Below are positions 29,166-47,673 of a stretch of 64,000 bases of DNA, piece by piece. Under the pieces are notes generated by a model. The model made no database searches, was not told the origin of the DNA, and saw only the letters and a program-made list of their open reading frames with translations. Both the position numbers and the translations under genes were made by a program. The DNA is from Algibacter luteus (GTDB lineage Bacteria; Bacteroidota; Bacteroidia; Flavobacteriales; Flavobacteriaceae): NCBI RefSeq assembly GCF_900141715.1, contig NZ_FQYK01000007.1:1-64000 (forward strand). Reading direction: 5' to 3'. Numbering within the stretch: position 1 is the stretch's first letter; every line of letters starts with the position of its first letter.

Positions 29166-29948
29166 CTAATGAATTGCTCTTTTTTGCAACCAAGAGTCGA
29201 GAATTTCATTAAATTCCTTTGGGTGTTCCATCATAGCGGCGTGTCCACATTTATCAATCCAAAACAATTCCGAATCCGGTAAAAGTTCATTAAATTCTAC
29301 CGCAACTTCAGGTGGTGTTACTGTATCATTTTTACCCCAGATAATGCATGTTGGTGTTTTGATTGTTGGTAAGTCTTTAGACATATTATGCCTAATGGCA
29401 CTTTTTGCAATGGCTAATGTTTTTATAAGCTTATTTCGGTCGTTTACAGTTTCATAAACTTCATCAACTATTTCTTTTGTGGCTATAGCAGGATCGTAAA
29501 AAACATCTTGCGCCTTCTTCTTAATGACTTCATAATCGCTTCGTTTGGTGTAACCTCCACCCATAGCGTTTTCATACAATCCAGAACTGCCAGTAATGAT
29601 AAGTGCTTTAACGCTTTCTGGAAATAGTTTGGTGTGGTACAAACCAATGTGCCCTCCTAAAGAATTCCCTAATAGAATCACTTCTTTATAGCCTTTAAAC
29701 TCAATAAAGTCGTGCAAATATTTTGCAAAATGCTTCACGTTTGTTTTTAATAAAGACAGTGTGTAAAGTGGTAGTTCGGGTATAATTACTTTATAACCCT
29801 TATTACTAAAATATTGAGTAACTGCATCAAAATTACTTAAACCTCCCATAAGGCCATGTAATACAATGATTGTTGTCCCTTCACCTGCTTCTATATAGCT
29901 ATAGTTTTGTTCTTTTTTTAAACGATGCGTCATTAATCGGTTAGTCAT
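29166..29948 (-). CDS. Alpha/beta-fold hydrolase
   Basis: A 260-residue soluble hydrolase. The oxyanion loop is LHGLMGGLSNF, the nucleophile elbow GNSLGGH, the acid probably the Asp in GKNDTVTP and the His in CGHAAMMEHP, so the triad is complete. Substrate cannot be read from sequence; the family ranges over esterases and C-C bond hydrolases. It is followed by engB on the minus strand and faces mraZ across a 296-bp divergent gap. An alternative start at the sixth residue (29933) would give nearly the same protein. Confidence 0.85.
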   Translation of the reverse strand: MTNRLMTHRLKKEQNYSYIEAGEGTTIIVLHGLMGGLSNFDAVTQYFSNKGYKVIIPELPLYTLSLLKTNVKHFAKYLHDFIEFKGYKEVILLGNSLGGHIGLYHTKLFPESVKALIITGSSGLYENAMGGGYTKRSDYEVIKKKAQDVFYDPAIATKEIVDEVYETVNDRNKLIKTLAIAKSAIRHNMSKDLPTIKTPTCIIWGKNDTVTPPEVAVEFNELLPDSELFWIDKCGHAAMMEHPKEFNEILDSWLQKRAIH

Positions 29949-30164
29949 TCATTCGTTAAAAACAAATATAGGTATTTCATTCATAATTCCACCATAATAA
30001 TTGTTTTCGAGAAAAAAAGTGAATGATGATCATTTCAAAATTAAAATATCAACTATGTTAAGACGGAAAAGTAGTAATACATATAAAATATTCAAGTAGT
30101 CTCAACATGTGGTTTTTGATTTATAAATCGGATAAAAAACAACTTTCATCAAAAATTTATTAAC

Positions 30165-30194
30165 AAAGTGGTATTAAGTGGTATAATGTGGGAT
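30165..30194 (+). promoter_or_regulatory. Predicted MraZ operator: three GTGG repeats spaced 10 bp
   Basis: GTGG occurs at 30168-30171, 30178-30181 and 30188-30191, each in the context A-A/T-GTGG-TAT or GAT. The exact 10-bp period and position before mraZ match the direct-repeat boxes bound by MraZ in other bacteria (TGGG-N6 in E. coli, AAAGTG-type in mollicutes). The array overlaps the -33 region of the probable promoter, so bound MraZ should repress the dcw cluster. The match is by pattern; binding in this phylum is inferred. Confidence 0.65.
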
Positions 30195-30203
30195 ATTTTT
30201 CAA

Positions 30204-30211
30204 TATATTTG
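30204..30211 (+). promoter_or_regulatory. Probable -7 box of the dcw cluster promoter
   Basis: TATATTTG fits TAnnTTTG exactly. The expected start near 30217 would leave a leader of about 28 nt to TTG 30245. No consensus TTG is found 19 nt upstream, where the GTGG repeats lie; this would suit a regulated promoter. Confidence 0.5.
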
Positions 30212-30244
30212 ACACTTAATCGTTTAAAAGTCAACAAACCTTCT

Positions 30245-30715
30245 TTGGATTTAATTACAGGAACATACGATTGTAAAGTGGATGCTAAAGGCAGATTAAT
30301 GATGCCTGCGTCTATCAAAAAGCAACTTTCTGCTGTTTTGCAGGATGGTTTTGTGCTGCGTCGTTCGGTGTTTCAAAAATGTTTAGAGCTATACCCGATG
30401 GGTGAATGGCAGGTGTTGATGCAGAAGATGAATAAGCTTAATAAGTTTAAAAAGAAGAATAACGATTTCATAAGAAGGTTTACTGCCGGTGCAAAAATGG
30501 TTGAAGTTGATGTGAATGGCAGGTTATTGATTCCAAAAGATTTAACAGTGTTTGCTAATATTTCAAAAAATATTGTAGTGGCTTCGGCTATTAACATTAT
30601 TGAAATTTGGGATAAAGATTTATACGAACAAGCTATTGATGATGCAGCATTAGATTTTGCTGATTTGGCTGAAGAGGTAATGGGACAAGATGATGACGAC
30701 CATGGAATATCATAA
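30245..30715 (+). CDS. mraZ: Transcriptional regulator MraZ
   Basis: AbrB-like DNA-binding protein with two SpoVT-type half domains that autoregulates the division and cell-wall cluster. Both signature copies are visible: TGTYDCKVDAKGRLMMPA near the start and VEVDVNGRLLIPKDL about 75 residues on. I chose TTG 30245, giving 156 residues, because MraZ proteins start a few residues before the first motif. The alternative GTG at 30188 lies inside the predicted operator and ahead of the -7 box. The gene end overlaps the rsmH start by 26 bp. Confidence 0.92.
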   Translation: MDLITGTYDCKVDAKGRLMMPASIKKQLSAVLQDGFVLRRSVFQKCLELYPMGEWQVLMQKMNKLNKFKKKNNDFIRRFTAGAKMVEVDVNGRLLIPKDLTVFANISKNIVVASAINIIEIWDKDLYEQAIDDAALDFADLAEEVMGQDDDDHGIS

Positions 30716-31598
30716 TCCTGTGCTCTTAAAAGAAACTGTTGATGGGCTGAATATAAGTCCAGATGGTATTTATGTAGATGTCACTTTCGGTGGTGGTGGA
30801 CATAGTAAAGAAATATTAAAACGACTTGGTGATAAAGGAAAGCTATATGCTTTTGATCAAGATTCGGACGCTCTTAAAAATACAATTGATGATGATAGGT
30901 TTACGCTAATTCATGAAAATTTTAGATTTCTAAAACGGTTTTTAAGGTTTCATGGTGTGAGGCAAGTTGATGGAATTTTGGCGGATTTTGGAGTGTCATC
31001 TCATCAATTTGATGTGGCAGAACGAGGTTTTTCAACACGTTTTGAAGCAGATTTGGATATGCGAATGAATCAGGCTAGCGAACTTTCTGCATTTCATGTG
31101 GTTAATGAATATGATGAAGAACAAATAAAGCAAGTGTTATTGCAGTACGGTGAGTTGCGTGCAGCTCCTGCCATGGCAAAATTAATTGTTGAGAGCAGAG
31201 CAAAACAGCCGATTGTAACAAGCGAACAATTAAAAGCAGTGCTTAAAAAGTTTTTGCCACCGCGTTTTGAAAATAAAGTGTTGGCCCAGATTTATCAAGC
31301 TATTAGAATAGAGGTCAATCAAGAAATTGAGGTTTTAAAGGAGTTTTTGATGCAAACTCCAGAAGTGTTGAAACCAGGAGGTCGTTTAAGTTTGATATCC
31401 TATCATTCTCTTGAAGATCGATTGGTGAAACGATTTATAAGAAACGGTATGTTTAGTGGTGAGCCAGAGCGCGATATGTATGGCAATTTTGAAGTGCCAC
31501 TTAAAAAAGTAAATGGGTTAATTGTACCAACGGCAGAAGAAATAAAAATTAATAACAGGGCAAGAAGTGCGAAACTGAGAATTGCTGAGAAATTATAA
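30690..31598 (+). CDS. rsmH: 16S rRNA m4C1402 methyltransferase RsmH
   Basis: SAM-dependent enzyme (old name MraW) that N4-methylates C1402 in the 16S rRNA decoding centre. The 302-residue protein shows YHNPVLLKETVDGL, the SAM loop DVTFGGGGHSKEIL, DGILADFGVSSHQFD, and the closing SLISYHSLEDRLVKRF. Starts at 30690, 30693 or 30702 are all possible; 30702 would begin directly with MEYHNPVLL, which is the usual family length. It overlaps mraZ, so translation is probably coupled. Confidence 0.95.
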   Translation: MMTTMEYHNPVLLKETVDGLNISPDGIYVDVTFGGGGHSKEILKRLGDKGKLYAFDQDSDALKNTIDDDRFTLIHENFRFLKRFLRFHGVRQVDGILADFGVSSHQFDVAERGFSTRFEADLDMRMNQASELSAFHVVNEYDEEQIKQVLLQYGELRAAPAMAKLIVESRAKQPIVTSEQLKAVLKKFLPPRFENKVLAQIYQAIRIEVNQEIEVLKEFLMQTPEVLKPGGRLSLISYHSLEDRLVKRFIRNGMFSGEPERDMYGNFEVPLKKVNGLIVPTAEEIKINNRARSAKLRIAEKL

Positions 31599-31916
31599 AT
31601 GAAGAAGAATATCTATAACATATTAAAAGGGACTTTTTTAGTTAGTGATGATTCATTTAGAAACTGGCGTTTCATAATATTTATTTCAGGTCTTGCAATA
31701 ATCATGATTGCTAGCTCGCATAGTGCAGATAAGAAAGTTTACGAAATAGCCAGGTTAAAAAATGAAGTTAAAGAAATGCGATCGGCTTTTGTTGATGGGC
31801 GTTCAAAACTTATGAGACTTAAAATGGAGTCGCATGTTATAGCTGTAATGAAAGAAAAAGGGTTGGCGCCCTCCGTAATTCCGCCAAAAAAAATAAAAGT
31901 TAAAAAGCAAAATTGA
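31599..31916 (+). CDS. ftsL: FtsL-like division protein
   Basis: A 105-residue bitopic membrane protein: short cytoplasmic N-terminus, one membrane helix (about 24-42) and a periplasmic coiled coil (about 45-80, KVYEIARLKNEVKEMRSAF) with a basic C-terminal tail. This topology and its place between rsmH and ftsI identify the FtsL of Bacteroidota, although primary sequence is poorly conserved. It forms part of the FtsQLB-type divisome complex. Its start immediately follows the rsmH stop. Confidence 0.85.
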   Translation: MKKNIYNILKGTFLVSDDSFRNWRFIIFISGLAIIMIASSHSADKKVYEIARLKNEVKEMRSAFVDGRSKLMRLKMESHVIAVMKEKGLAPSVIPPKKIKVKKQN

Positions 31917-31926
31917 TAACGCACCC

Positions 31927-33942
31927 TTGGCAGTAAACGAGAGAAACATATTAAACCGTTTGTATTTTATAGCTGGATGTATGTTCATCTTCGGTCTTGC
32001 TGTGGTGTTTAAATTATTAAGTATCCAGTTTCTTCAAGGAGATGTTTATAGAGCTAAAGCCACAGAGCGTGTTGTAAAAAATGTTATTATTCCTGCCAAC
32101 AGAGGAAATGTGTATTCGGTTAACGGCAATTTATTAGCCACGTCAATCCCTAAATACGATATTCGTTTAGATGCACTTACCCCTTCATCAAAAACTTTCG
32201 AAAAACACATCAAGACGCTTTGCGATTCTCTTTCAAAATTTACAGGTAAATCCTCTAATCAAATAGAAAAGGATGTGAGACGGGCACGTGCAAATAAAAA
32301 CAGATATTTTTTATTGGCTAGAAATATTGGGTATTCAGATTATATCCGATTAAGAAATTTTCCATTATTAAACCTCGGTGCTTTTAAGGGTGGTTTAATA
32401 GTAGAGCAAACTACAAAGCGTGAACATCCTATGGGTGGTATCGCTCAAAGAACAATTGGTTACGAGCGAATTGATGATAATGGAAATGTGACTAGACCTG
32501 GAATTGACGGTGCTTTTGGAGTGAAATATTTACGAGGTGTCGACGGGCAACGTAAAAAACAACAAATAGGGAAAGGGCAGTGGAAACCTTTAAGTGATGC
32601 CAATGAAATTGAGCCAAAAGATGGGTATGATGTTTATACAACCATTGATGTTAACATTCAAGATATAGCGCATCACTCATTGCTGGAACAATTAGAAAAA
32701 TACAAAGCAGACCATGGCTGTGTTGTAGTAATGGAAACTAAAACGGGCGAAATTCGTGCCATTTCAAACCTTGGAAGAAATAAAAACGGACATTATTATG
32801 AGCGTTTAAATTACGCTGTAGGTGAAAGTCATGAGTCAGGTTCTACATTTAAACTTATGGCGCTTGCCGCAGTTTTTGAAGACAAACTTGCTGATACCAG
32901 TGATGTAGTGGATACAGAGAAAGGCATTGTAAAATATTATGGAAAATCAGTTCGAGATTCTAAACATGGTGGCTACGGAAAAATTAGTGTTGCCAAAGCT
33001 TTTGAGGTGTCATCAAACACTGGTATTGTTAAAGTAATAGATAAAGCCTACAGAAAACAGCCAGAAAAGTTTGTTGATAGATTGTATGAAATGAATCTTC
33101 AAGACAACTTAAATCTCCCTTTAATTGGTGAGCCAGAACCTATAATTCCAGATCCTAGGGTAAAAAATGGGCGTTGGAGCGGTATTGCTTTGCAGTGGAT
33201 GGCTTATGGTTATGGCGTTCAGTTTACCCCATTACAAACCCTTACGTTTTATAATGCCATTGCGAATGATGGAGTTATGGTTAAACCTAGGTTTTTAAAA
33301 GAGGTTAAAGAGTTTGATAAAGTTATTGAGCCTTTTAATAAAGAGGTAATCAACAAACAAATATGCTCTAAAGAAACCATCGCTAAATTGCAAACATTGC
33401 TCAAAAATGTTGTTGAAAAGAAACATGGAACAGGCCACAGGTTGTATTCTGAAAACTTTTCGATGGCAGGAAAAACAGGTACTTGTCAAAAAAATTATAG
33501 AGATAAGGAAAAGCTTAACTACATCTCGTCTTTTGCTGGATATTTCCCTGCTGAAAACCCAAAATATTCTTGCATTGTAGTTATTCATGAGCCTGATAAG
33601 AGCGTTGGGTATTATGGTGCCGATGTTTCTGGTCCTGTGTTTAAAAGAGTCGCGCAAAAAATCTACACAGATACACCATTAATTGATGAGATAGAATCTT
33701 TAGAAGTTCAAATTGGTTCAGTTGAAGAAGATTATGAAAGCTATTATAAAACAGCGCAAACTTATAAAACAATTATGCCAAATGTTGTTGGTATGCCAGC
33801 AATGGATGCCTTAGCATTGTTAGAAAATATGCAAGTAAATGTTGCTGTAAAATTAGAAGGTAGCGGTGTTGTTAAGGCGCAATCAATCAATAAGAACACA
33901 AAATTAAAAAACAATCAAACTATAGTCTTAAGAGCCTCATGA
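31927..33942 (+). CDS. ftsI: Division-specific penicillin-binding protein (FtsI/PBP3) with PASTA domain
   Basis: Septal peptidoglycan transpeptidase. The 671-residue protein has an N-terminal anchor (about 12-32), the PBP dimer domain with RGNVYSVNGNLLA, and the transpeptidase domain. The active-site motifs are SxxK in SGSTFKLMA, SSN in VSSNTG and KTG in AGKTGTC. A single PASTA repeat follows at about 618-671 (MPNVVGMPAMDALALLE). TTG 31927 is the start, as no ATG precedes the membrane helix. The stop overlaps the murE start (ATGA). Confidence 0.95.
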   Translation: MAVNERNILNRLYFIAGCMFIFGLAVVFKLLSIQFLQGDVYRAKATERVVKNVIIPANRGNVYSVNGNLLATSIPKYDIRLDALTPSSKTFEKHIKTLCDSLSKFTGKSSNQIEKDVRRARANKNRYFLLARNIGYSDYIRLRNFPLLNLGAFKGGLIVEQTTKREHPMGGIAQRTIGYERIDDNGNVTRPGIDGAFGVKYLRGVDGQRKKQQIGKGQWKPLSDANEIEPKDGYDVYTTIDVNIQDIAHHSLLEQLEKYKADHGCVVVMETKTGEIRAISNLGRNKNGHYYERLNYAVGESHESGSTFKLMALAAVFEDKLADTSDVVDTEKGIVKYYGKSVRDSKHGGYGKISVAKAFEVSSNTGIVKVIDKAYRKQPEKFVDRLYEMNLQDNLNLPLIGEPEPIIPDPRVKNGRWSGIALQWMAYGYGVQFTPLQTLTFYNAIANDGVMVKPRFLKEVKEFDKVIEPFNKEVINKQICSKETIAKLQTLLKNVVEKKHGTGHRLYSENFSMAGKTGTCQKNYRDKEKLNYISSFAGYFPAENPKYSCIVVIHEPDKSVGYYGADVSGPVFKRVAQKIYTDTPLIDEIESLEVQIGSVEEDYESYYKTAQTYKTIMPNVVGMPAMDALALLENMQVNVAVKLEGSGVVKAQSINKNTKLKNNQTIVLRAS

Positions 33943-35402
33943 AAGTTTTAAAAGACATATTATATAAGGTTACTTTAAACGCTGTCGTTGGTTCGACTAG
34001 TGTCGAGTTGTCTACTATAGAATTCGACTCTAGAAAAATAATAAAGGGCAGTTTGTTTGTGGCAATTCGAGGTTCAATCACAGATGGTCATGAGTATATT
34101 GATAAAGCAATAAAAAATGGTGCCACTAGTGTAGTTTGTGAAGCGATTCCAGAAAAATTGGTAGATAGTATTACCTATATAGAAGTTGATAATACCAGTA
34201 AAGCATTAGCGGTAATGGCATCAAATTACTATGAAAACCCTTCAGAGAATTTAAGGCTAGTTGGTGTTACAGGTACAAATGGAAAAACTACAGTAACAAG
34301 CTTGCTGTATCAATTATTTAAAAAAGCAGGATATAAAGTTGGGTTGCTCTCAACTGTGAAAATTATGGTAGATGAAACTGAGTATAAGGCAACTCATACT
34401 ACTCCAGATTCTTTAACCATAAATAAGTATTTAAGAGAAATGAATGATGAAGGTGTAGAATTTTGCTTTATGGAAGTGAGTTCTCATGGCATTCATCAAT
34501 ATAGAACCGAAGGTTTGCATTTTGAAGGTGGAATCTTCACAAATCTTACCCATGATCATTTGGATTATCACAGCACATTTGCTGAATATCGCGATGTTAA
34601 AAAGAAGTTTTTTGATGAGCTTCCTAGTAATGCATTTGCGTTATCTAATGTCGATGATAAGAACGGTTTAGTGATGTTGCAGAATACAAGAGCTAAAAAA
34701 TATACCTATGCTTTAAAGCAATACGCAGACTACAAAACTCAAATTTTAGAAAATCAATTTGGAGGCTTATTACTCAAAGTTAATGATAGTGAAGTTTGGA
34801 CAAGACTTATTGGAAATTTTAATGCCTACAATGTTTTGGCTATTTACGCTACTGCTGAATTGTTGGGGTTAGAACGAGTTGAAATATTGCGCTTAATAAG
34901 TGATTTAGAAAGTGTGAGTGGAAGATTTCAGTACGTGGTATCAAGTGATAAAATTACCGCCATTGTTGATTATGCTCATACTCCTGATGCTTTAAAAAAT
35001 GTATTAGAAACTATTAATAGCATTCGAACTAAAAACGAAGAGTTAATAACAGTTGTGGGTTGCGGTGGAGACAGAGATAAAACCAAACGACCAAAAATGG
35101 GACATATCGCCACGGCCTTAAGTACCAAAGTCATTTTTACAAATGATAATCCCAGAACTGAAAACCCTGATCAGATTTTAAAAGAAATTGAATCTGGAGT
35201 AGAGCCCCAAAATTTCAAGAAGGCATTAACCATTGCGGACAGAAAGCAAGCCATAAAAGCAGCATGCCAAATGGCGCAACCCAACGATATCATATTAATT
35301 GCTGGAAAAGGTCATGAAGCCTATCAAGAAATTAATGGTGAGCGATTTGATTTTGATGACCTTAAAATAGTAAAAGAACTTTTAAAACAATTACAGAAGT
35401 AA
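33939..35402 (+). CDS. murE: UDP-MurNAc-L-Ala-D-Glu:meso-diaminopimelate ligase MurE
   Basis: ATP-dependent ligase adding the third stem residue of the peptidoglycan precursor. The 487-residue protein has the Mur-ligase ATP loop GVTGTNGKTTVTSL, the HTTPD motif, EVSSHGI, the LTHDHLDYH segment and the C-terminal ligase domain with DYAHTPDALKN. The substrate loop reads NDNPRTENP, and the DNPR sequence marks specificity for meso-diaminopimelate over lysine, so this organism should have DAP-type peptidoglycan. murF, the usual next gene, is absent; a decayed repeat fills the 42-bp gap to mraY. Confidence 0.96.
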   Translation: MKVLKDILYKVTLNAVVGSTSVELSTIEFDSRKIIKGSLFVAIRGSITDGHEYIDKAIKNGATSVVCEAIPEKLVDSITYIEVDNTSKALAVMASNYYENPSENLRLVGVTGTNGKTTVTSLLYQLFKKAGYKVGLLSTVKIMVDETEYKATHTTPDSLTINKYLREMNDEGVEFCFMEVSSHGIHQYRTEGLHFEGGIFTNLTHDHLDYHSTFAEYRDVKKKFFDELPSNAFALSNVDDKNGLVMLQNTRAKKYTYALKQYADYKTQILENQFGGLLLKVNDSEVWTRLIGNFNAYNVLAIYATAELLGLERVEILRLISDLESVSGRFQYVVSSDKITAIVDYAHTPDALKNVLETINSIRTKNEELITVVGCGGDRDKTKRPKMGHIATALSTKVIFTNDNPRTENPDQILKEIESGVEPQNFKKALTIADRKQAIKAACQMAQPNDIILIAGKGHEAYQEINGERFDFDDLKIVKELLKQLQK

Positions 35403-35404
35403 AT

Positions 35405-35434
35405 GTCATTCTAAGCTTAAGCAAAGAATCTCAA
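35405..35434 (+). repeat. Decayed interspersed repeat, copy 1 (murE-mraY gap)
   Basis: About 30 bp from TGTCATTCTAAG to GAATCTCA, resembling the TGTCATTCTGAGC...GAAGAATCTC repeats seen between genes in flavobacteria. It aligns with the element at 36691-36720 at 22 of 30 positions by eye. It lies where murF stands in other bacteria. Confidence 0.45.
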
Positions 35435-35444
35435 AAATAATAAG

Positions 35445-36686
35445 ATGTTATACTACCTATTTGAATATTTAGAACAGCAGTTTCAACTTCCAGGGGCTAC
35501 TCTTTTTGGGTTTTTAACCTTTAGAGCTGCAATGGCAATGATTTTGTCGCTGTTAATTTCTACAATTTATGGTAAAAGAATTATCCGTTTTTTACAAAGA
35601 CAACAAGTAGGTGAAACGATTAGAGATTTAGGGCTTGAAGGGCAGAAAGAAAAAGCAGGAACACCTACTATGGGTGGTGTAATTATCATTTTGGCTACGC
35701 TTATTCCTGTACTGTTATTGGCAAAATTAGAGAACATTTATATCATTCTTCTCATAGTAACCACATTATGGATGGGAACTATAGGGTTTATAGATGATTA
35801 CATTAAGAAGTTTAAAAAAAATAAAGAAGGACTTAAAGGGCGCTTTAAAGTTTTAGGGCAAGTAGGATTAGGAATTATTGTTGGAGCAACTTTGTTTTTC
35901 CATCCTGAAGTAACGATGAAAGAAAAACTGCCCATTGCAGAACAGCGAGCGTTGTTGGCTGAAAATCCAGATATCGAGCCTTTTAAATTGTTTAAAGATG
36001 AAGTTAAATCCACCAAAACTACCATTCCTTTTGTTAAAGGAAACGAGTTTGATTATTCAATGGTCATTACTTGGATAAGCCCAAATCTTGAAAAATACGC
36101 GTGGATAGTATTTATTTTGGTTGCCATTTTTATAATTACAGCAGTTTCTAACGGCGCAAATCTTACCGATGGAATAGATGGGTTGGCAGCTGGAACTTCT
36201 GCAATAATTGTGCTCACTTTAGGGATTTTTGCCTGGGTATCGGGTAACATAATTTTCTCAGAGTATTTGAATATTATGTATATACCAAGAGTTGAAGAAA
36301 TTACAATTTATATCACGGCATTTGTAGGTGCATTAATTGGTTTTTTATGGTATAACACATTTCCTGCTCAGGTCTTTATGGGTGATACGGGAAGTTTAAC
36401 CATTGGTGGAATTATAGCAGTAATTGCTATTGCAGTTAGAAAAGAATGGTTAATTCCAGTATTATGCGGCATCTTTTTAGCCGAAAACCTTTCTGTAGTA
36501 ATGCAGGTAAGTTGGTTTAAATACACCAAAAAGAAGTATGGTGAAGGACGACGAATTTTTAAAATGTCACCATTGCATCACCATTATCAAAAATCTGGAT
36601 ATCACGAAAGTAAAATAGTTACACGTTTTTGGATTGTAGGCATATTGCTCGCAATCCTTTCAATTGTAACATTGAAAATTAGATAA
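35445..36686 (+). CDS. mraY: Phospho-MurNAc-pentapeptide transferase MraY
   Basis: Inner-membrane enzyme that loads phospho-MurNAc-pentapeptide on undecaprenyl phosphate to make lipid I. The 413-residue polytopic protein has [16 protein letters not shown], the catalytic [28 protein letters not shown] and [10 protein letters not shown], and [15 protein letters not shown] near the C-terminus. A soluble insert at about 150-200 (between helices) makes it longer than the roughly 360-residue E. coli enzyme; this insert is common in Bacteroidota. Decayed repeats flank the gene on both sides. Confidence 0.96.
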
Positions 36687-36690
36687 TACT

Positions 36691-36720
36691 TGTTATGCTG
36701 AGTGTAACCAAAGCATTTCA
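36691..36720 (+). repeat. Decayed interspersed repeat, copy 2 (mraY-murD gap)
   Basis: About 30 bp (TGTTATGCTGAG to GCATTTCA) related to the element before mraY. It fills most of the 42-bp gap, which has the same length as the murE-mraY gap. Copy number elsewhere in the genome is unknown. Confidence 0.45.
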
Positions 36721-36728
36721 TAAAAAGA

Positions 36729-38066
36729 ATGAAAAAACAACGATTAGTCATATTAGGAGGGGGAGAAAGTGGTGTTGGAACAGCACTTTTAGGAAAAGCG
36801 AATGGATATGATGTTTTTGTTTCAGATAAAGGAAAAATAAAAGAGAATTACAAACAAGTTCTTTTACATAATGAGATTGAATGGGAAGATGAAACGCATA
36901 CAGAATCAAAAATTCTAAATGCTGATATCGTCATGAAAAGCCCTGGCATTCCCGATAAAGTTGCATTGGTTAAAGCTATTCGTGATAAAGGAATTCAAGT
37001 CGTTTCAGAAATTGAATTTGCGTCTAAATTCACAAATGCTACAGTTGTTGGGATAACAGGAAGTAATGGTAAAACTACCACGGCAACGTTAACGCATCAT
37101 ATTTTAAAACAAGAATTAAATGTAGGGTTAGCAGGAAATATTGGAGATAGTTTTGCAAAACAGGTTTTAGAAAATGATTATGAAAATTACGTGCTAGAAA
37201 TAAGCAGTTTTCAGTTAGATGATATCATTGGTTTCAAGCCTAAAATTGCCGTATTACTCAATATTACACCCGATCATTTAGATAGATATAATTATGAATT
37301 TGAAAATTATATCCAATCAAAATTTAGAATTGCCTTGAATCAAACAAAAGAAGATTATTTGATTTATGACGCCGATGATGAAGTGATAACAAATCATCTA
37401 AAAAACAACCCAGTTCAATCCCAATTATTGCCATTTTCATTAACAAAAACTATTGAAAATGGCGCGTATTTAGATAAAGAAAACATAAAACTAACAATAA
37501 ATAACAATCAAATAATTATGCCAACAGGAAACATAACTTTAGAAGGAAAGCACAATATTAAAAATGCCATGGCAGCTTCCACTGTGGCACATTTACTAAA
37601 AATTAGAAAACAAACTATTCGTGAAAGTTTAGAGAATTTTCAAGGTGTCGAACATCGTTTAGAGCAGGTGCTTAAAATCAACAAAGTGCAGTACATAAAC
37701 GACTCAAAAGCCACTAATGTAAATGCAACGTATTATGCGCTTGAAAGTATGGATGCTCCAACGGTTTGGATTGTAGGGGGTGTCGATAAAGGAAATAATT
37801 ATGAAGAGTTATTTCCGTTTATAAATGAAAAAGTGAAAGCCATTATATGTCTAGGTGTTGATAATGAGAAGCTAATGAACACTTTTGGTAATATGGTTGA
37901 TGTGATTATTGAAACGCAATTTATGAGTGAAGCTGTGAAAATAGCTTATAAAATTGCAGAAGCTGGCGATAACGTTTTGCTATCTCCTGCTTGTGCAAGT
38001 TTTGATTTATTTGAAAACTATGAGGACCGCGGTCGCCAATTTAAAAATGCAGTAAGAAACTTATAA
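36729..38066 (+). CDS. murD: UDP-MurNAc-L-alanine:D-glutamate ligase MurD
   Basis: Cytoplasmic ATP-dependent ligase adding D-Glu to UDP-MurNAc-L-Ala. The 445-residue protein has an N-terminal Rossmann-like domain (LGGGESGVGTALL), the ATP loop GITGSNGKTTTATL, EISSFQLDDI, LNITPDHLDRY and the C-terminal domain with YINDSKATNVNATYYAL and SPACASFDLFENYEDRG. All expected Mur-ligase motifs are present. ftsW follows after 12 bp. Confidence 0.96.
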   Translation: MKKQRLVILGGGESGVGTALLGKANGYDVFVSDKGKIKENYKQVLLHNEIEWEDETHTESKILNADIVMKSPGIPDKVALVKAIRDKGIQVVSEIEFASKFTNATVVGITGSNGKTTTATLTHHILKQELNVGLAGNIGDSFAKQVLENDYENYVLEISSFQLDDIIGFKPKIAVLLNITPDHLDRYNYEFENYIQSKFRIALNQTKEDYLIYDADDEVITNHLKNNPVQSQLLPFSLTKTIENGAYLDKENIKLTINNNQIIMPTGNITLEGKHNIKNAMAASTVAHLLKIRKQTIRESLENFQGVEHRLEQVLKINKVQYINDSKATNVNATYYALESMDAPTVWIVGGVDKGNNYEELFPFINEKVKAIICLGVDNEKLMNTFGNMVDVIIETQFMSEAVKIAYKIAEAGDNVLLSPACASFDLFENYEDRGRQFKNAVRNL

Positions 38067-38078
38067 TTATAGTTAAAA

Positions 38079-39272
38079 GTGCAAACCCTATTTAAAAACA
38101 TAAAAGGCGATAGATTAATTTGGGCAATAGTAGCGTTATTGGCTATTCTTTCGTTTTTACCTGTATACAGTGCCGCTAGCAACTTAGCTTACAAAGGTGC
38201 AGGCAGTAGTACTTTTACTTTTTTTATTAAGCACTTTGTGCATTTGGTTTTAGGATTTGCAATTATTTATGGTGTGCATAAAATTCCATACAGGTATTTT
38301 AAAGGCTTGTCATTAATAATGATACCAGTGGTTTTAGTTTTGTTAGGATTAACCATTCTTCAAGGAAAAACTATTGATGGTGCGAATGCTAGCAGATGGA
38401 TTCAAATTCCCTTTGTCGGTATGTCTTTTCAAACATCTACCCTAGCTGCTGTTGTGCTTATGGTGTATGTGGCAAGATATATGTCTAAAATTAAAGACGA
38501 AATTATCACCTTTAAAGCATCTATATTACCGCTATGGCTGCCTGTTTTTCTCATCTTAATCTTGATTTTGCCTGCAAATTTCTCAACGGCAGCAATTATG
38601 TTTTTAATGGTGTTAATGTTGGTATTTTTAGGTGGATATCCACTGAGGTATTTAGCCGTAATTGTTGGTTCGGGTATTTTGGTTTTAACTCTTTTTATTT
38701 TAATAGCTAAAGCGTTTCCAGATGCTATGCCTAATAGAGTTGATACGTGGATGGGACGAATTGAAAGTTTCTCTAACCCTGAAGATACGGAAGCTGATTA
38801 TCAAATAGAAAAGGCAAAAATTGCCATTGCTACCGGAGGAATTAAAGGTGTAGGCCCAGGAAAGAGTATGCAAAAGAACTTTTTACCACAGTCGTCTTCA
38901 GATTTTATTTTCGCCATTATTATTGAAGAATATGGATTAATTGGCGGGTTTGTAATCATGACATTATACTTGTGGTTATTATTTAGAATTGTAATTGTTT
39001 CGCAAAAAGCAGATACTATTTTTGGTAAACTTTTGGTATTAGGTGTTGGGTTGCCAATTGTATTTCAAGCCTTAATTAATATGGCTGTTGCAGTAGAATT
39101 GTTTCCGGTTACAGGTCAAACCTTACCATTAATAAGTAGTGGAGGTACATCAATTTGGATGACATGTTTAGCCATAGGAATAATTTTAAGTGTTAGTGCA
39201 AAACGAGAAGAAATAAAAGAACAAGAGATAAACGAAGACAATCCATTAGAAATACTTTCGGAAACTATATAA
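38079..39272 (+). CDS. ftsW: Septal peptidoglycan polymerase FtsW
   Basis: SEDS-family membrane glycosyltransferase that polymerises lipid II at the septum with FtsI. The 397-residue protein has about ten helices and the family motifs GANASRWIQIP, the periplasmic loop ending KSMQKNFLPQSSSDFIFA, and VTGQTLPLISSGGTS. GTG 38079 is the start, giving a short N-terminus before the first helix. Position between murD and murG separates it from the elongation paralogue RodA. Confidence 0.95.
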   Translation: MQTLFKNIKGDRLIWAIVALLAILSFLPVYSAASNLAYKGAGSSTFTFFIKHFVHLVLGFAIIYGVHKIPYRYFKGLSLIMIPVVLVLLGLTILQGKTIDGANASRWIQIPFVGMSFQTSTLAAVVLMVYVARYMSKIKDEIITFKASILPLWLPVFLILILILPANFSTAAIMFLMVLMLVFLGGYPLRYLAVIVGSGILVLTLFILIAKAFPDAMPNRVDTWMGRIESFSNPEDTEADYQIEKAKIAIATGGIKGVGPGKSMQKNFLPQSSSDFIFAIIIEEYGLIGGFVIMTLYLWLLFRIVIVSQKADTIFGKLLVLGVGLPIVFQALINMAVAVELFPVTGQTLPLISSGGTSIWMTCLAIGIILSVSAKREEIKEQEINEDNPLEILSETI

Positions 39273-40373
39273 ATGAGCAACTATAAAATCATATTATCTG
39301 GTGGAGGTACAGGAGGACATATTTATCCTGCCATTGCCATTGCAAACGAGTTAAAATCGCGTTTTCCTGATGCTGAATTTTTGTTTGTGGGTGCTAAAGA
39401 TAGGATGGAAATGGAAAAAGTTCCTCAAGCCGGATATCGTATTGAAGGATTATGGATTTCTGGTGTTCAGCGTAAGCTTACCATGAAGAATTTAAGTTTT
39501 CCTTTTAAAGTGATGAGTAGTCTTTTAAAAGCTCGAAAAATCATCAAAACATTTAAGCCAGATGTTGCCATTGGTACAGGTGGATTTGCAAGTGGGCCAT
39601 TGTTGCAAGCAGCGGTTTCTAATAAGATTCCTTCGTTAATACAAGAGCAAAATTCATATCCTGGAATAACCAACAAGATTTTAGCAAAAAAAGCTAAAAA
39701 AATATGTGTCGCTTATGATGGGTTGGAACGATTTTTTCCAAAAGATAAAATTATAAAAACAGGAAATCCTGTACGTCAAAGTTTATTAGATATTGAAACC
39801 AAAACCGTTGAAGCAAAAAAATTTTTCGATTTAGATGCTAATAAGCTCACGTTATTGATAATTGGCGGGAGTTTAGGTTCTAGAAGAATAAACCAACTCA
39901 TAGAAAAGGAGCTCGACTTCTTCGATACTCAAAACATCCAAATTATATGGCAGTGCGGTAAGTTGTATTATCAGCAATATAAACTTCACGGTAACACGAA
40001 AAGTATTCAGGTTTATGAATTTTTAAATAATATGGATTTTGCTTATGCCGCGGCAGATATAGTGATTTCAAGAGCAGGGGCGGGGTCGGTTTCAGAGCTA
40101 TGTATTGTTGGGAAGCCTGTGATTTTTATTCCATCGCCAAATGTGGCAGAAGACCATCAAACCAAAAACGCCATGTCTATTGTGAAAGAAGATGCAGCTT
40201 TAATGATTAAGGAAGAAGATTTAGATGCAAATTTTGAAAACACGTTATCACAGCTTATCCATTCAACTGAAAAGCAAAAAACATTAGGCAAAAACATAAA
40301 AGCACTGGCATTGGTAAATGCTACAAAAGATATAGCAGACGAAGTCGAAAAACTTCTCAAGGAAAGTAAATGA
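39273..40373 (+). CDS. murG: UDP-GlcNAc:lipid I GlcNAc transferase MurG
   Basis: GT28 glycosyltransferase at the inner face of the membrane that converts lipid I to lipid II. The 366-residue protein has the first Gly-rich loop [16 protein letters not shown], a second loop [11 protein letters not shown] and the UDP-GlcNAc site [12 protein letters not shown] with [15 protein letters not shown]. Its start follows the ftsW stop directly and its end overlaps murC by 4 bp, so the genes are tightly coupled. Confidence 0.96.
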
Positions 40374-41722
40374 ATTTAAAAGATATCCATAACATCTATT
40401 TTATTGGCATTGGCGGTATAGGCATGAGTGCTTTGGCTCGCTATTTTAATGCCAATAATAAGCTTGTTTCTGGTTACGATAAAACACCAACAGATATCAC
40501 TAATGGATTAAGAGAATTGGGTATTGAGGTTAATTTTACAGATTCAGTCGAAAATATTAAATCTGTGTTACAAAATAAGGAAACAACATTGATTGTCTAT
40601 ACGCCTGCAATACCTAAAAACCATGAACAATTAAATTATTTTAAAAACAACGGATTTAAGGTATTTAAACGTTCTCAAATCTTAGGATTAATTACAGAAA
40701 ATACATTTTGTTTAGCAGTTGCGGGTACACACGGAAAAACAACTACAACAAGTATTTTAGGACATCTAATGCATGAATGCCAAGTGCCTTTAACTGCTTT
40801 TTTAGGTGGAATTAGTGAGAATTATAATTCAAATTTAATTTTGGGTGGTAATGAAGTTTCTGTTGTTGAAGCCGATGAGTTCGATCGTTCGTTTTTAACC
40901 CTCTCACCGAATTTAGCTTGCATTACCTCTATGGATGCAGATCATTTGGATATTTATGGTGATGCTTCAGAATTAAAAAAATCCTTTGAAGATTTCACGA
41001 AAAGGATAAAACCTAGCGGGAAATTGTTTATTAAAAATGGCTTGCCTCTAAGCGGTATAACTTATGGGATAGAAGACGATTCAGATTATACAATTCAAAA
41101 TATAAAAATAGATAATGGTACTTATGTTTTTGATGTAAAAACTCCAAAAACAGTACTAGAAAATTTAAAATTTAACCTACCTGGTAGACACAATTTGTCG
41201 AATGCATTAGTAGCCTTGGCGATGGCTGTAGAATATGGTTGCCCAAACCAACAGCTCGCCAAAGCTTTAGCATCTTATAAAGGTGTAAAACGCAGATTTA
41301 CGTATCACATTAAAACTGATGATTTTGTGTTTATTGATGATTATGCCCATCATCCAGAAGAAATAAATGCAGTGTATCAAGCAGTTAGAGAAATGTATCC
41401 TATCAAGAAAGTATTAGCCATTTTTCAGCCTCATTTATATAGTAGAACGAATGATTTTGCAGATGAATTTGCAAAAAGCTTATCTCAGTTTGATGAGCTG
41501 ATATTATTAGATATTTATCCAGCTAGAGAATTGCCGATTCCTGGTGTTACCTCCGCTTGGTTATTAGAAAAGGTAAGTCATAAAAACAAGCAACTCATTG
41601 GTAAAAATGAATTGCTCACTAAAATACACGAATCTCAAGCTCAAGTTATTTTAACAATGGGCGCTGGAGATATTGGAGAAGAAGTAAGACATATTAAAAA
41701 GGAATTTAGTTATGCGAATTAA
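40370..41722 (+). CDS. murC: UDP-MurNAc:L-alanine ligase MurC
   Basis: First amino-acid ligase of the peptidoglycan stem. The 450-residue protein has the N-terminal UDP-binding [17 protein letters not shown] loop [33 protein letters not shown] and the C-terminal [15 protein letters not shown] with FQPHLYSRT. No ddl gene or fusion follows, unlike in many proteobacteria; ftsQ begins 11 bp inside the murC end. Confidence 0.96.
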
Positions 41723-42431
41723 TTGGGGCTACATAAAATTAGTGGTTTTGTTTGCTGTGGTGGTCTTTTTGTTTGCCTTTGCTACGACAAGAAATGGTGA
41801 ACGACAAATTACAGAACCAAGCATAAAATTTGTTGGCGAAAACAATTTGTTCTTAACAAACGAAACTGTTAGTAAATTGTTAATACAAAATTATGGCGCT
41901 CTTAAAAACGTGCCTAAAGAAACTTTAGTTTTGGATGAATTAGAAAAAGCCCTCAAATCTAATCCTATGGTTAAAAATGCTGAAGTGTATGTGTCTGTAA
42001 ATGCTACACTTAACGCGGAAATAGAACAAAAAACACCTATTGCAAGAGTAAGTACAAATGCGTCTTATTATATTGATGATGAAGGTTCATTCATGCCATT
42101 GTCAAAAAATTATTCTGCACGAGTGCCATTAGTTACTGGTTATGTGGAAAAAAATAATTTAAAAAACGTCTATAAAATAGCTCGAAAAATTAAAGAAGAT
42201 GAGTTTCTAAAAAAACATGTTTTTGAGATTCATCAAGATAGAGATAAGAAGCTTTATTTAAGACTAAGGAAGTGTGATTTTTTGGTGCAAATAGGTGATG
42301 AAAAATTTTTGGATAAAAAAATAAATAACCTCAAAGCATTTTATAAAAAAAATCAAAAGGATAATACACTAAACAGTTATAGTAAAGTGAATTTACAGTT
42401 TGAAAATCAAGTAATATGTACCAAAATTTAA
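41712..42431 (+). CDS. ftsQ: Cell-division protein FtsQ/DivIB
   Basis: A 239-residue bitopic divisome protein: short basic N-terminus, a membrane helix (about 9-26) and a periplasmic part with a POTRA-like domain (about 35-105, IKFVGENNLFLTNETVSKLL) and a beta domain. It recruits the FtsL complex and checks septal synthesis. Sequence similarity is weak as usual for this family; the assignment rests on topology, the DDEGSFMPLS segment and location between murC and ftsA. The gene overlaps murC by 11 bp. Confidence 0.9.
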   Translation: MRINWGYIKLVVLFAVVVFLFAFATTRNGERQITEPSIKFVGENNLFLTNETVSKLLIQNYGALKNVPKETLVLDELEKALKSNPMVKNAEVYVSVNATLNAEIEQKTPIARVSTNASYYIDDEGSFMPLSKNYSARVPLVTGYVEKNNLKNVYKIARKIKEDEFLKKHVFEIHQDRDKKLYLRLRKCDFLVQIGDEKFLDKKINNLKAFYKKNQKDNTLNSYSKVNLQFENQVICTKI

Positions 42432-42434
42432 ACT

Positions 42435-43748
42435 ATGGAGCATAATTTAGCAGTAGGATTAGACATAGGAACCACGAAAATTGTGGCAATGATTGGGCGT
42501 AAAAATGAATACGGCAAAGTTGAAATTTTAGGTATAGGTAAATCTAAAAGTTTGGGAGTGCATCGTGGTGTTGTAAACAACATAACCCAAACTATTCAGT
42601 CTATTCAACAAGCTGTTCAAGAAGCAGAAGTTGCAGCAGATTTAAAAATAGAAGATGTAACTGTTGGGATAGCAGGACAACATATAAGAAGTTTACAACA
42701 TAGTGATTATATCACCAGAGCGAATTCTGAAACGGTGATTGACGAAGATGATATTGATAGACTTATCAATCAAGTTCATAAACTTGTAATGCTTCCGGGT
42801 GAAGAAATTATTCATGTACTGCCTCAAGAATATAAAGTTGATGGTCAAGCCGAAATAAAAGAGCCCATTGGCATGTATGGTGGTAGATTAGAAGCTAATT
42901 TTCATGTTGTTGTTGGTCAAGTATCATCCATTAGAAATATAGGGCGTTGTGTACAAAGTTCTGGATTGAACCTTGAAGGAATTACCCTCGAGCCTTTAGC
43001 ATCTGCTAATGCCGTTTTAAGTCAAGAAGAAAAAGAGGCAGGTGTTGCTTTAATTGACATAGGTGGCGGAACAACAGATTTGGCCATTTTTAGAGATGGA
43101 ATCATTCGTCATACGGCAGTAATTCCATTTGGAGGTAATGTGATTACTGAAGATATTAAAGAAGGTTGTTCTATAATTGAAAAGCAAGCCGAATTATTAA
43201 AAATAAAATTTGGTTCTGCGTGGCCAGGGGAAAATAAGGATAATGAAATTGTTTCTATTCCTGGGTTAAGAGGAAGAGAGCCTAAAGAAATAACCTTAAA
43301 AAACTTATCTAAAATTATTCACGCCCGTGTTGTTGAAATAATCGAGCAAGTGTATGTCGAGATAAAGAATTACGGACACGAAGAACAAAAGAAAAAATTA
43401 ATAGCCGGAATAGTTTTAACAGGAGGAGGAAGTCAACTTAAACATTTAAAGCAATTAGTTGAATATATCACAGGCATGGATACTAGAATTGGGTACCCTA
43501 ATGAGCATTTAGCAGGCGATAGTGATGACGATGTTACGAGCCCGCTTTTCGCAACTGCGGTTGGTTTAGTGTTAGATGGTTTAAAACGTCAAGAAAGAAA
43601 AAAAGTTGAACTGCAAGAGGAGATAATAAGTCATGAAGAAGAATCGGAAGATGAAGACGAAGTAAAAGAAAAACCATTAAAAGAACGACGCTCTTTTCTT
43701 GATAAGTTAACCGAACGTGTTAAAGACTTTTTAGATAATGCAGAGTAG
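42435..43748 (+). CDS. ftsA: Divisome actin-like protein FtsA
   Basis: Actin-fold ATPase that tethers FtsZ filaments to the membrane. The 437-residue protein has GLDIGTTKIVAMIG, the SHS2-type 1C domain region, LIDIGGGTTDLAIF and LTGGGSQLKHLKQL. The C-terminus carries a Glu/Lys-rich linker and a terminal amphipathic helix (SFLDKLTERVKDFLDN) that fits the membrane-targeting sequence. The gene is 3 bp after ftsQ and 91 bp before ftsZ. Confidence 0.96.
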   Translation: MEHNLAVGLDIGTTKIVAMIGRKNEYGKVEILGIGKSKSLGVHRGVVNNITQTIQSIQQAVQEAEVAADLKIEDVTVGIAGQHIRSLQHSDYITRANSETVIDEDDIDRLINQVHKLVMLPGEEIIHVLPQEYKVDGQAEIKEPIGMYGGRLEANFHVVVGQVSSIRNIGRCVQSSGLNLEGITLEPLASANAVLSQEEKEAGVALIDIGGGTTDLAIFRDGIIRHTAVIPFGGNVITEDIKEGCSIIEKQAELLKIKFGSAWPGENKDNEIVSIPGLRGREPKEITLKNLSKIIHARVVEIIEQVYVEIKNYGHEEQKKKLIAGIVLTGGGSQLKHLKQLVEYITGMDTRIGYPNEHLAGDSDDDVTSPLFATAVGLVLDGLKRQERKKVELQEEIISHEEESEDEDEVKEKPLKERRSFLDKLTERVKDFLDNAE

Positions 43749-43839
43749 AACTATAAAATAAAAAGTCTTTAAGACTTAGTGAGAAAAAAATCCATTTGAA
43801 TTAAAATATTAAGTACAAAACCCCAAAAAACAGAATTTT

Positions 43840-45828
43840 ATGAGCAGCAAAAAAGAATTCGAAACAAACATTTCATTTGATTTGCCTAAAAACCAATCAA
43901 ATGTCATTAAAGTCATAGGTGTTGGTGGCGGTGGTAGCAATGCCATAAATCATATGTTCCAGCAAGGTATAAAAGGTGTAGATTTTTACATCTGTAATAC
44001 CGATGCACAGGCATTACAAAATAGTGGTGTGCCTAATAAAATTCAGCTAGGTCTTAATTTAACTGAAGGATTAGGTGCTGGTGCAAATCCAGATATAGGC
44101 GAGCAATCTGCTGTTGAGAGTTTTGATGACATTTCTCAAATGCTAGACTCAAACACAAAAATGGTTTTTATTACTGCAGGAATGGGCGGTGGAACCGGTA
44201 CTGGGGCAGCTCCAATTATTGCTAAAATGGCTAAAGATTTAGACATTTTAACTGTTGGAATTGTAACAATGCCATTTCAGTTTGAAGGGAGAATGCGTAT
44301 TGAGCAATCTCAAAAAGGAATTGAAAAATTAAGAAAAGTAGTCGATTCGTTAATTGTAATCAATAATAATAAACTTCGTGAAGTATACGGAAACCTAGGT
44401 TTTAAAGCAGGTTTCTCGAAAGCCGATGAGGTGCTATCTACCGCTGCTCGTGGTATAGCAGAAGTTATTACGCATCACTACACACAAAACATCGATTTAC
44501 GCGACGCTAAAACTGTTTTAAGTAATAGCGGAACGGCCATAATGGGTTCTGCCTTAGCTTCAGGTCAAGATCGTGCACAAGATGCCATTCGTAAAGCACT
44601 CGATTCTCCATTATTAAACGATAATAAAATAACAGGAGCTAAGAATGTATTATTATTAATCGTTTCTGGCACCCAAGAAATAACAATTGACGAGATTGGA
44701 GAAATAAATGATCACATTCAAAATGAAGCTGGTCATGGTGCTAACATTATTATGGGTGTTGGCGAAGATGAATCATTAGAAGAGTCAATTGCTGTAACCA
44801 TTATAGCTACAGGATTTAATATAGAACAACAAGATGAAATTTCCAATACAGAAACTAAGAAGGTTGTTCATTCATTAAGTGAAGATTTAGAATTAGATGC
44901 AAAAGAAAAAGAACCTGTTGTTATCGAACCAACAATTGTTCTTGAAGAAAAGAAGGAGCCGCCAGTAGTTCGTCACACTTTAGAGATTGAAGAAGAGGAA
45001 GTTACTTTTGTTAAAAAGGAAGAGATTGAAGAAAAACATAGGGATATTGAACTCATTCCAACTTCAGAAATTATAAAAAACATGAATGTGGTTTATGATG
45101 AAGTAAAAGCTGATTATGGCACATTTGAAGAAGATGAAGATTTCATTATCAAACCAGTTACTAGAATGGTTGCAGACGTTGAAAATGTCCAGGATATTGA
45201 AGTTATTTCAGATAGTATTGAAGAAGAGCAACAAATCACATTAACCTTCGATTTGCCATTGTCAAATTCAAGCGAATCCAAAGAAGAAGAAATAGAAAAT
45301 GAAGATTTAGTAACTTATGATTTAACCGATGATGTAAAAGATATATCTGTTAATGATTATGTGGAGTTAATCACTGTAAACGAGACAAACGAAGAAGGCG
45401 ATATTCGTTATGCATTGGATGATTATGTTGAGGTAGAATCTTCAATGAATAATACTCAGAAAGCAACTAAAGTTGTTGAAGAAGAAGTAGATGAGGAAGT
45501 TGTCTTTGAAAAGAAAGTTGTTAAAGAACCTGAATTAGGAGAAGACACAGCAGAAGAAATAGACCCAATGAATAGTCCAATTTCTGAGTTGTTAAAAGAG
45601 CGTGCGGAAGAGCGCAGACGTAAAATGAAGGACTTTAACTATAAATTTAATAATGCCAAAATTGATGATATTGAAAAAGTGCCTGCTTACAAGCGTCAAG
45701 GTGTCGATTTAAAAGAAAATAAGCATTCATCAGAAACAGATTTATCTAGAACAAGTATTGGTTTAGATGATAATGATGATCTTCAATTAAGAAATAATAA
45801 TTCATTTTTACATGATAATGTAGATTGA
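43840..45828 (+). CDS. ftsZ: Cell-division GTPase FtsZ with long acidic C-terminal linker
   Basis: Tubulin-like GTPase forming the Z ring. The GTPase core covers about residues 18-320, with [13 protein letters not shown], the GTP signature [10 protein letters not shown] and the T7-loop region [11 protein letters not shown] to [10 protein letters not shown]. At 662 residues it is far longer than the roughly 380-residue E. coli protein: residues 325-610 form an acidic, repeat-poor linker. The probable C-terminal binding peptide VPAYKRQG is at 614-621, but 41 further residues follow. A strong terminator comes 35 bp after the stop. Confidence 0.96.
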
Positions 45829-45862
45829 TTTATTCGAATTTAACCTAGTGTGTTATTTAATG

Positions 45863-45898
45863 ACCCGAAAAGTTCCCTCGACTTTTCGGGTTTTTTTT
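45863..45898 (+). terminator. Strong terminator at the end of the dcw cluster
   Basis: An 11-bp perfect stem ACCCGAAAAGT/ACTTTTCGGGT with a 7-nt loop, followed by eight T residues. It separates ftsZ from yqeY. Confidence 0.92.
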
Positions 45899-46735: not shown

Positions 46736-47155
46736 ATGATACGAAAAGCACCAGTTTCTATGATAATGACAGAGCATGTCATCACATTAAAAAAAACAGA
46801 TAGCCTAGAAAAAGCCGAAAAGTTATTTAAGCGACATAAAATACGACATATTCCTGTTGTCGATGACGATGCCATAATTGGAATGCTTAGTTATTCTGAC
46901 TTATTACGATTGAGTTTTGCCGATGTTACCAATGAAGACGAAAACATTGTAGATGTAATGGTATATAATATGTTTAAAATAGACCAAGTTATGAAACGAA
47001 ACTTAGTTACAGTATCGTCATCAAAATCTATAAAAGAGGTTGCTGAAATATTAGCTACAAACGAATTTCATGCGCTACCGGTAGTGGATAATAATAAGTT
47101 AAGTGGCATTGTAACTACTACAGATTTAATTAAGTATTTACTTAAACAGTTTTAA
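46736..47155 (+). CDS. CBS-domain pair protein, copy 1
   Basis: A 139-residue stand-alone CBS pair (Bateman module) without an attached enzyme or channel. The two repeats are PVSMIMTEHVITL to SYSDLLRL (about 6-60) and VMKRNLVTVSSSKSI to TTTDLIKYL (about 80-135). Such modules bind adenosine nucleotides or other ligands and act as sensors. It is clearly paralogous to the next gene, sharing LFKRHKIRHIPVV and NEFHALPVVDN. A palindromic FNR-like site lies upstream. Function in this organism is not known. Confidence 0.85.
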   Translation: MIRKAPVSMIMTEHVITLKKTDSLEKAEKLFKRHKIRHIPVVDDDAIIGMLSYSDLLRLSFADVTNEDENIVDVMVYNMFKIDQVMKRNLVTVSSSKSIKEVAEILATNEFHALPVVDNNKLSGIVTTTDLIKYLLKQF

Positions 47156-47256: not shown

Positions 47257-47673
47257 ATGAAACATATTCCAGTATCTTCAATTATGACTAAAAAAATTGT
47301 AGCAATTACCCTTACGGAAGATTTAGAAAGGGCTGAATTGTTATTTAAGCGTCATAAAATAAGACATATTCCAGTCGTTTCCAATGAGGTTATAGTTGGA
47401 ATGTTAAGTTATACAGATTTGATGCGAATAAGTATTGCAGAAACTGATGATGAAGCCGGAAATACAATTGATTCGATAGTCTTTAATACTTTTAAAATAG
47501 AACAAGTCATGGCAAAAAGTGTCGTGACTGTAAGTAGTGAAACGTCAATTAAAGAAGCTGCTAAAATTCTGGCTAAAAATGAATTTCATGCTTTACCAGT
47601 AGTTGATAATGGCGAATTAGTTGGTATTATAACAACTACAGATTTACTCAACTATCTCGTTAACGAGATTTAA
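47257..47673 (+). CDS. CBS-domain pair protein, copy 2
   Basis: A 138-residue CBS pair, the tandem duplicate of the gene 101 bp upstream; I judge about 60% identity by eye. Shared blocks are LFKRHKIRHIPVV, GMLSY-DL and NEFHALPVVDN followed by TTTDL. The linker between repeats (AETDDEAGNTIDSIV) is one of the more divergent parts, so the two may bind different ligands or form a heterodimer. The stop overlaps that of the convergent rpe gene, and a perfect 16-bp palindrome lies at its 3' end. Confidence 0.85.
   Translation: MKHIPVSSIMTKKIVAITLTEDLERAELLFKRHKIRHIPVVSNEVIVGMLSYTDLMRISIAETDDEAGNTIDSIVFNTFKIEQVMAKSVVTVSSETSIKEAAKILAKNEFHALPVVDNGELVGIITTTDLLNYLVNEI

Follow-up and report, generated by a model that had tools for sequence, protein, structure and literature searches.

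In Mollicutes, the MraZ operator consists of direct repeats of AAAGTG[T/G] (Fisunov 2016, cited in PMC8475190, in part). The MraZ-bound site at the dcw promoter of Burkholderia cenocepacia comprises four GTG repeats, each of 7 nt with a 3-nt spacer, which lie downstream of the -10 box and overlap the start site; those of Escherichia coli are placed alike (PMC7761207, in part). MraZ represses in E. coli and Mycoplasma genitalium, whereas more FtsZ was found upon MraZ overexpression in M. gallisepticum, which speaks against a simple repressor (PMC8475190, in part, and work cited there). DnaA sites were identified by ChIP or in vitro binding at the ftsL promoter region of Bacillus subtilis and at ftsZ of Caulobacter; the parts of that article dealing with these sites make no mention of MraZ (PMC8203912). 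In Bacteroidota, the sigma-A promoter is characterized by TTTG at -33 and TAnnTTTG at -7 (PMC6847099, in part), and among the openly licensed PMC papers listed in literature searches, no title or abstract describes MraZ sites from this phylum or a DnaA box at mraZ.

The stretch analyzed here (64,000 nucleotides of Algibacter luteus, contig NZ_FQYK01000007.1; referred to as the window) carries GTGGTATTAAGTGGTATAATGTGG at 30168-30191, in which three exact GTGG (at 30168, 30178, and 30188) follow one another with a period of 10 bp, i.e., at least three GTG-core direct repeats upstream of mraZ (Table 1). Such an array ahead of TATATTTG and a TTG start of mraZ had been proposed in an earlier sequence-only reading, and all of its elements were found in place. 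GTGG-N6-GTGG-N6-GTGG had a single exact match in the window on both strands (0 in 100 shuffles) and a single one in the 3.38-Mb genome, where two more appeared elsewhere when one mismatch was allowed. The box units read AAGTGG, AAGTGG, and ATGTGG, and profile matches placed an MraZ protein at the locus, encoded by the single MraZ gene found in this genome. As far as the cited parts describe the known systems, the array resembles that of Mollicutes in its nearly identical unit, its location at an mraZ promoter heading the division cluster, and its single occurrence in the genome, but differs in that it overlaps the -33 region of a TAnnTTTG promoter of the Bacteroidota type and has a DnaA-box-like 9-mer attached to it. 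GTG repeats at a 10-b step and the dcw promoter are shared with B. cenocepacia; unlike in B. cenocepacia and E. coli, there are three repeats, and they are located upstream of the -7 box.

Table 1. Features of the mraZ promoter region and the dcw cluster in the window (positions relative to the inferred transcription start where given).
Feature	Position	Strand	Remarks
DnaA-box-like element TTATTAACA	30157..30165	+	upstream of MraZ box 1, 2 b apart; about -59 to -51
MraZ box 1 (predicted), core GTGG	30168..30171	+	about -48
MraZ box 2 (predicted), core GTGG	30178..30181	+	about -38
MraZ box 3 (predicted), core GTGG	30188..30191	+	about -28
Sigma-A -7 box TATATTTG	30204..30211	+	begins 16 b past the first base of the last GTGG
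Inferred transcription start	30216	+	-7 box spacing of F. psychrophilum (PMC9723704, in part)
mraZ	30245..30715	+	Pfam PF02381, 8e-26; NCBIfam TIGR00242, above cut-off
mraZ start codon TTG	30245..30247	+	TTG/GTG/ATG at this position in 135/136 relatives
12 further dcw genes after mraZ	30690..45828	+	ORFs; order: rsmH, ftsL-like, penicillin-binding protein, murE, mraY, murD, ftsW-like, murG, murC, ftsQ-like, ftsA, ftsZ
Terminator-like hairpin behind ftsZ	45862..45892	+	13 pairs and T-run; pattern scan

mraZ was detected in 36 of 40 genomes (own genome included), 30 of which supplied loci, and in 233 of 247 genomes of the phylum; of 568 relatives, the best 80 were kept. Loci without a protein anchor (L065, L159, L164, L165, L215, and L218) were left out. 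Anchoring succeeded for 139 of 140 flavobacterial loci, and since three of the 139 upstreams were identical to others, 136 distinct ones remained. Three exact GTGG repeats were present in 126 of these 136, two in eight, and one in two, counts that are not independent because many loci come from close relatives; when one locus per genus was sampled, 27 of 30 had three exact repeats and three had two. The alignment of flavobacterial mraZ upstreams that the sequence-only reading had called for thus showed that the 10-bp-spaced GTGG is kept. Outside the order, at least three GTG[GT] were found in 15 of 17 anchored loci of a class-level sample (20 mraZ places fetched; because some also belong to the f17 and f18 sets, a few are counted twice), in 27 of 28 loci of lineage f18, and in all 30 of lineage f17, in which one upstream was a duplicate (29 distinct). 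We take f17 to be Cyclobacteriaceae and f18 to be Chitinophagaceae. Among 18 genomes without a detected mraZ, 12 were searched for rsmH and ten yielded it (one of these loci, L171, contained a diverged MraZ-like frame by eye); none of the ten had an array, or even two GTG[GT] at a 10-bp distance, within 400 b upstream of rsmH. The array therefore co-occurred with mraZ and was missing without it (0 of 10 rsmH upstreams). Since relatives keep the 10-bp GTGG array upstream of mraZ, its assignment as an MraZ operator, with binding as a prediction, is supported.

Further GTGG were found exactly 21 b before box 1 in 37 of the 126 three-box flavobacterial loci (followed by T in 32) and 32 b before it in 12 of the 126.

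TANNTTTG alone occurred at chance frequency (96 in the window vs 111 expected), and its weight comes from its fixed place in relatives, not from its frequency. TAnnTTTG started 16 b (111 loci) or 15 b (14 loci) after the last GTGG in 125 of the 136 relatives, was elsewhere in eight, and was missing in three; the proposal of a -7 box behind the repeats was thus confirmed by a nearly fixed distance. In Flavobacterium psychrophilum, the -7 box of sigma-A promoters extends from -12 to -5, and the median leader is 24 nt (PMC9723704, in part). This spacing puts the start near 30216 and the three boxes at about -48, -38, and -28, and the leader from 30216 to the TTG at 30245 would be 29 nt. With the start site so placed, the window promoter has TAnnTTTG at -7, while TTTG at -33 is missing (the region reads GTGGTATAATGTGG) and boxes 2 and 3 would lie across the -33 region. 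In a search for a leader RNA element, no Rfam match was obtained in 29900-30800, and the leader fold was no better than those of shuffles. A sigma-70-like TTAACA-16-TATAAT at 30160-30187 (11 of 12) was rejected, as TATAAT was not kept in relatives.

Position -15, counted from the conserved G-x-Y of MraZ, read TTG in 93, GTG in 23, and ATG in 19 of the 136 loci (the remaining one had ATG at -12). A varying first base before an invariant TG looks like a start codon, and the TTG start proposed previously was thereby upheld, with one of the three codons at this position in 135 of 136. By comparison, rsmH of the same loci started with ATG in 113 of 115 scored (21 of 136 were not scored). The near-even distribution in the one-per-genus sample (TTG 11, ATG 10, and GTG 9) indicates that the TTG excess in the larger set is partly due to the sampling of close relatives. 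The start codon was ATG in 26 and TTG in two of 28 loci in f18, and ATG in 30 of 30 in f17. The program-made ORF list picks GTG at 30188, within repeat 3; this codon and the in-frame TTG at 30209 were both rejected, because the inferred transcript would start downstream of them and homology sets in only at 30245. The operator helps in locating the start codon of mraZ, which in this family is frequently TTG or GTG. A weak start codon would keep the MraZ repressor scarce. In six of the 136 flavobacterial loci (L027, L055, L108, L118, L119, and L141), the start codon, GTG, was itself part of an additional MraZ-box-like GTGGTAAA that followed the last array GTGG at a distance of 41 to 51 b.

All 13 genes from mraZ to ftsZ are on one strand, with the largest gap (91 b) before ftsZ. 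RsmH, MurE, MraY, MurD, MurG, MurC, FtsA, and FtsZ scored above NCBIfam cut-offs, and the penicillin-binding protein and FtsW below; the ftsL-like and ftsQ-like genes had no NCBIfam match and were named by place. The pattern scan gave 16 terminator-like sites in this region, compared with 9.4 expected, and the hairpin behind ftsZ was the strongest. Judging from MraZ work elsewhere and the gene order, all 13 genes are likely to be repressed by MraZ, and internal promoters may be present within the run. Downstream of the dcw region, the neighboring frames 46736-47155 (139 aa) and 47257-47673 (138 aa) were similar to each other and, as named from their sequences, are probably tandem copies of a CBS-domain protein.

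The sequence-only reading considered 30165-30247 and did not list TTATTAACA, which lies just outside this range at 30157-30165. A column count around the array revealed a second block, TTAT[CT]AACAA, conserved like the box spacers, and elements of the TTATTAACA type were about as conserved as the GTGG repeats. TTATYAACA was present in 129 of the 136 flavobacterial upstreams (shuffle mean of 2.95; largest of 20 shuffles, 7) and in 27 of the 30 one-per-genus loci; in 123 of the 126 three-box loci, box 1 was preceded at 1-4 b by TTAT[ACT][AC]ACA, with A at position 6 in 122 of the 123. The DnaA box consensus is TTATNCACA (PMC4447404, in part), from which the window copy is one base off (A for C at position 6) and which it therefore fails to match. 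In f18, the exact textbook box TTWTNCACA was present in the reverse orientation in 23 of 28 upstreams (shuffle mean of 2.15), and in 17 of 28 the distance from the element to the last box downstream was 56 b. In f17, also in reverse, TTTTCCACA was found in 10 and TTTTCAACA in 16 of the 29 distinct upstreams (shuffle means of 0.3 and 0.45, respectively), and in 18 of 30 the element preceded the last box by 35 b. A 9-mer that stays constant while its orientation and distance vary by lineage favors a separate protein. TTWT[CT][AC]ACA was missing within 150 b upstream of rsmH in all ten loci without a detected mraZ. In the window genome, TTATYAACA was at chance frequency (275 vs 263 for the reversed control), and most of its copies thus mean nothing.

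If the element is a DnaA box, flavobacterial replication origins should share its odd spelling. In the complete flavobacterial genome G095, in which a coarse skew narrowed the search to a 450-kb stretch, the skew minimum was at 2,547,347 and the densest 600-b cluster of TTWTN[AC]ACA started at 2,546,899, between rpiB-like and RNase R-like frames (names assigned from sequence); it held four TTATTAACA and two TTTTCAACA. Four TTATYAACA within 500 b of the minimum compared with 0.07 expected, and as many were found in seven of 4,490 windows. In genome G302 of f18, two TTTTCCACA and one TTATCCACA, i.e., three TTWTCCACA, were located within 500 b of the skew minimum at 640,660 (0.08 expected; as many in seven of 1,840 windows), and no TTATYAACA was present in the same range. 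The spelling at these two putative origins matched that of the mraZ-adjacent element in the respective lineage. One of the three origin hunts failed: the skew minimum of G041 (f17), at 1,832,752, had no box cluster and the origin was not located.

Upstreams of rpiB from the order gave a similar result: among 21, TTATYAACA occurred 36 times in 17 and was absent from four (2.24 expected; largest of 200 shuffles, 7), and TTATCCACA occurred nine times in nine (0.18 expected). A blind ranking of 9-mers in these upstreams placed TTATCCACA first and GTTATTAAC, TATTAACAA, and TTATTAACA among the next six; a second rpiB-like match (L331) was left out. TTATTAACA, TTATCAACA, and TTATCCACA boxes were seen at the putative flavobacterial origin (L294; G095:C1:2546735-2547530) and in rpiB upstreams L303-L320 and L323. 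The rpiB upstreams of f17 and f18 had no box cluster, so that rpiB is an origin marker in this order only. The surroundings of the 9-mer differed: at mraZ, it was usually preceded by C or T and was followed by A in 124 of 129 cases, and at origins it was usually preceded by G and was followed by A in 17 of 32. The recognition helix of DnaA had the sequence RDHATV in all five flavobacterial genes that were read, RDHSTV in a gene from f17, and RDHTTV in 1j1v, a difference that may explain the altered spelling of the box.

These results suggested that TTATTAACA is a DnaA box built into the MraZ operator, an assignment that we regard as fairly probable, with DnaA binding as part of the prediction. 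An operator for MraZ alone, in which TTATYAACA is needed by MraZ or RNA polymerase as a flanking contact, as a bendable stretch that spaces the boxes, or as an A/T-rich element of the UP type, and its likeness to origin 9-mers is a coincidence in AT-rich DNA, would account for the 2-3 b that separate it from box 1 in most flavobacteria, for its position at the place of a UP element, and for the 37 of 126 loci with a GTGG 21 b before box 1, where TTATYAACA is enclosed by MraZ boxes and may be seen as a spacer. We consider this rather unlikely: the 9-mer is reversed and at other distances in f18 and f17, an exact textbook DnaA box stands in most f18 loci, and the spelling of the element varies between lineages as origin boxes do. 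Another regulator, whose motif overlaps the DnaA box and whose site accompanies the MraZ operator, would fit a single-copy 9-mer with A instead of C at position 6 in flavobacteria, but is improbable in view of the same exact f18 boxes and of the high places that TTATTAACA and TTATCCACA took in the blind enrichment ranking for putative flavobacterial origins.

With respect to the array itself, activation by MraZ instead of repression could be invoked on the basis of FtsZ in M. gallisepticum and of a window promoter that, without TTTG at -33, could need help; this is quite improbable given that a protein bound to boxes 2 and 3 would block polymerase at the -33 region and that MraZ represses in the two other species mentioned. 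A chance repeat without function, for which the chance frequency of TANNTTTG might be cited, was refuted by the conservation of three exact repeats in relatives and by the shuffles, and has practically no probability left.

According to the model that we prefer, a composite promoter of MraZ operator and DnaA box, which is somewhat more probable than its alternatives taken together, MraZ would bind the three GTGG boxes on one helix face, cover the -33 region of the sigma-A promoter, and repress its own transcript, comprising mraZ and 12 division and cell-wall genes up to the hairpin behind ftsZ; a weak start codon would hold MraZ low. Binding and repression by MraZ, for which MraZ work elsewhere is the basis, are highly probable. 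DnaA, on a box separated from the MraZ boxes by 2 b, would either compete with MraZ or cooperate with it, by which dcw transcription would be linked to replication initiation. The DnaA sites at B. subtilis ftsL, itself a dcw gene, and Caulobacter ftsZ are likewise at division-gene promoters; in contrast to them, the site here is predicted and, in three lineages, accompanies an MraZ array. In E. coli, the DnaA boxes upstream of ftsZ were shown to play no part in its transcription (PMC8203912, in part), and RsmH and PbpB levels of B. subtilis were unchanged on replication arrest (PMC11019786); both results count against coupling through DnaA, and we put forward such cell cycle coupling of the dcw genes tentatively, as possible but doubtful. 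For Flavobacteriales and the two other sampled lineages of the class, a composite MraZ-DnaA operator, whose box spelling drifted with that of the chromosome origin and at which DnaA acts directly on division and cell-wall transcription in competition or cooperation with MraZ, falls just short of an even chance.

The arrangement had been thought undescribed in Flavobacteriia; this stands insofar as none was found in the titles and abstracts of the openly licensed PMC papers listed in literature searches, but the type of operator was known from Mollicutes. What differs from the known systems is its placing and the attached DnaA-like 9-mer. If the model is true, the replication initiator acts directly on the transcription of division and cell-wall genes, and a DnaA-like site at the dcw switch could tie cell division to DNA copying. 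The site offers a concrete 9-bp target for mutation in a laboratory flavobacterium.

In the window genome, the rpiB upstream held just two boxes, one TTATCCACA and one TTATTAACA, and no clear box cluster was found beside dnaA or in the first 10 kb of 14 other contigs; in Bacteroidetes, oriC commonly lies at a distance from dnaA (PMC4755523, in part). Two candidates were rejected here: TTATCCACA as a clustered origin box, its 32 copies being scattered, and a TTATCAACA group at C5:802021-802951, all three copies of which are inside ORFs (this hunt covered 100 of the 275 TTATYAACA places). TTATCCACA looks avoided in this genome (32 copies vs 75 of the reversed pattern). In G041, four DnaA-like boxes were found in 264 b at 1456-1719 of a stretch (L200; G041:C1:1-10000) that also encodes DnaA, away from the skew minimum of the chromosome; this group could be a dnaA promoter or a second candidate origin.
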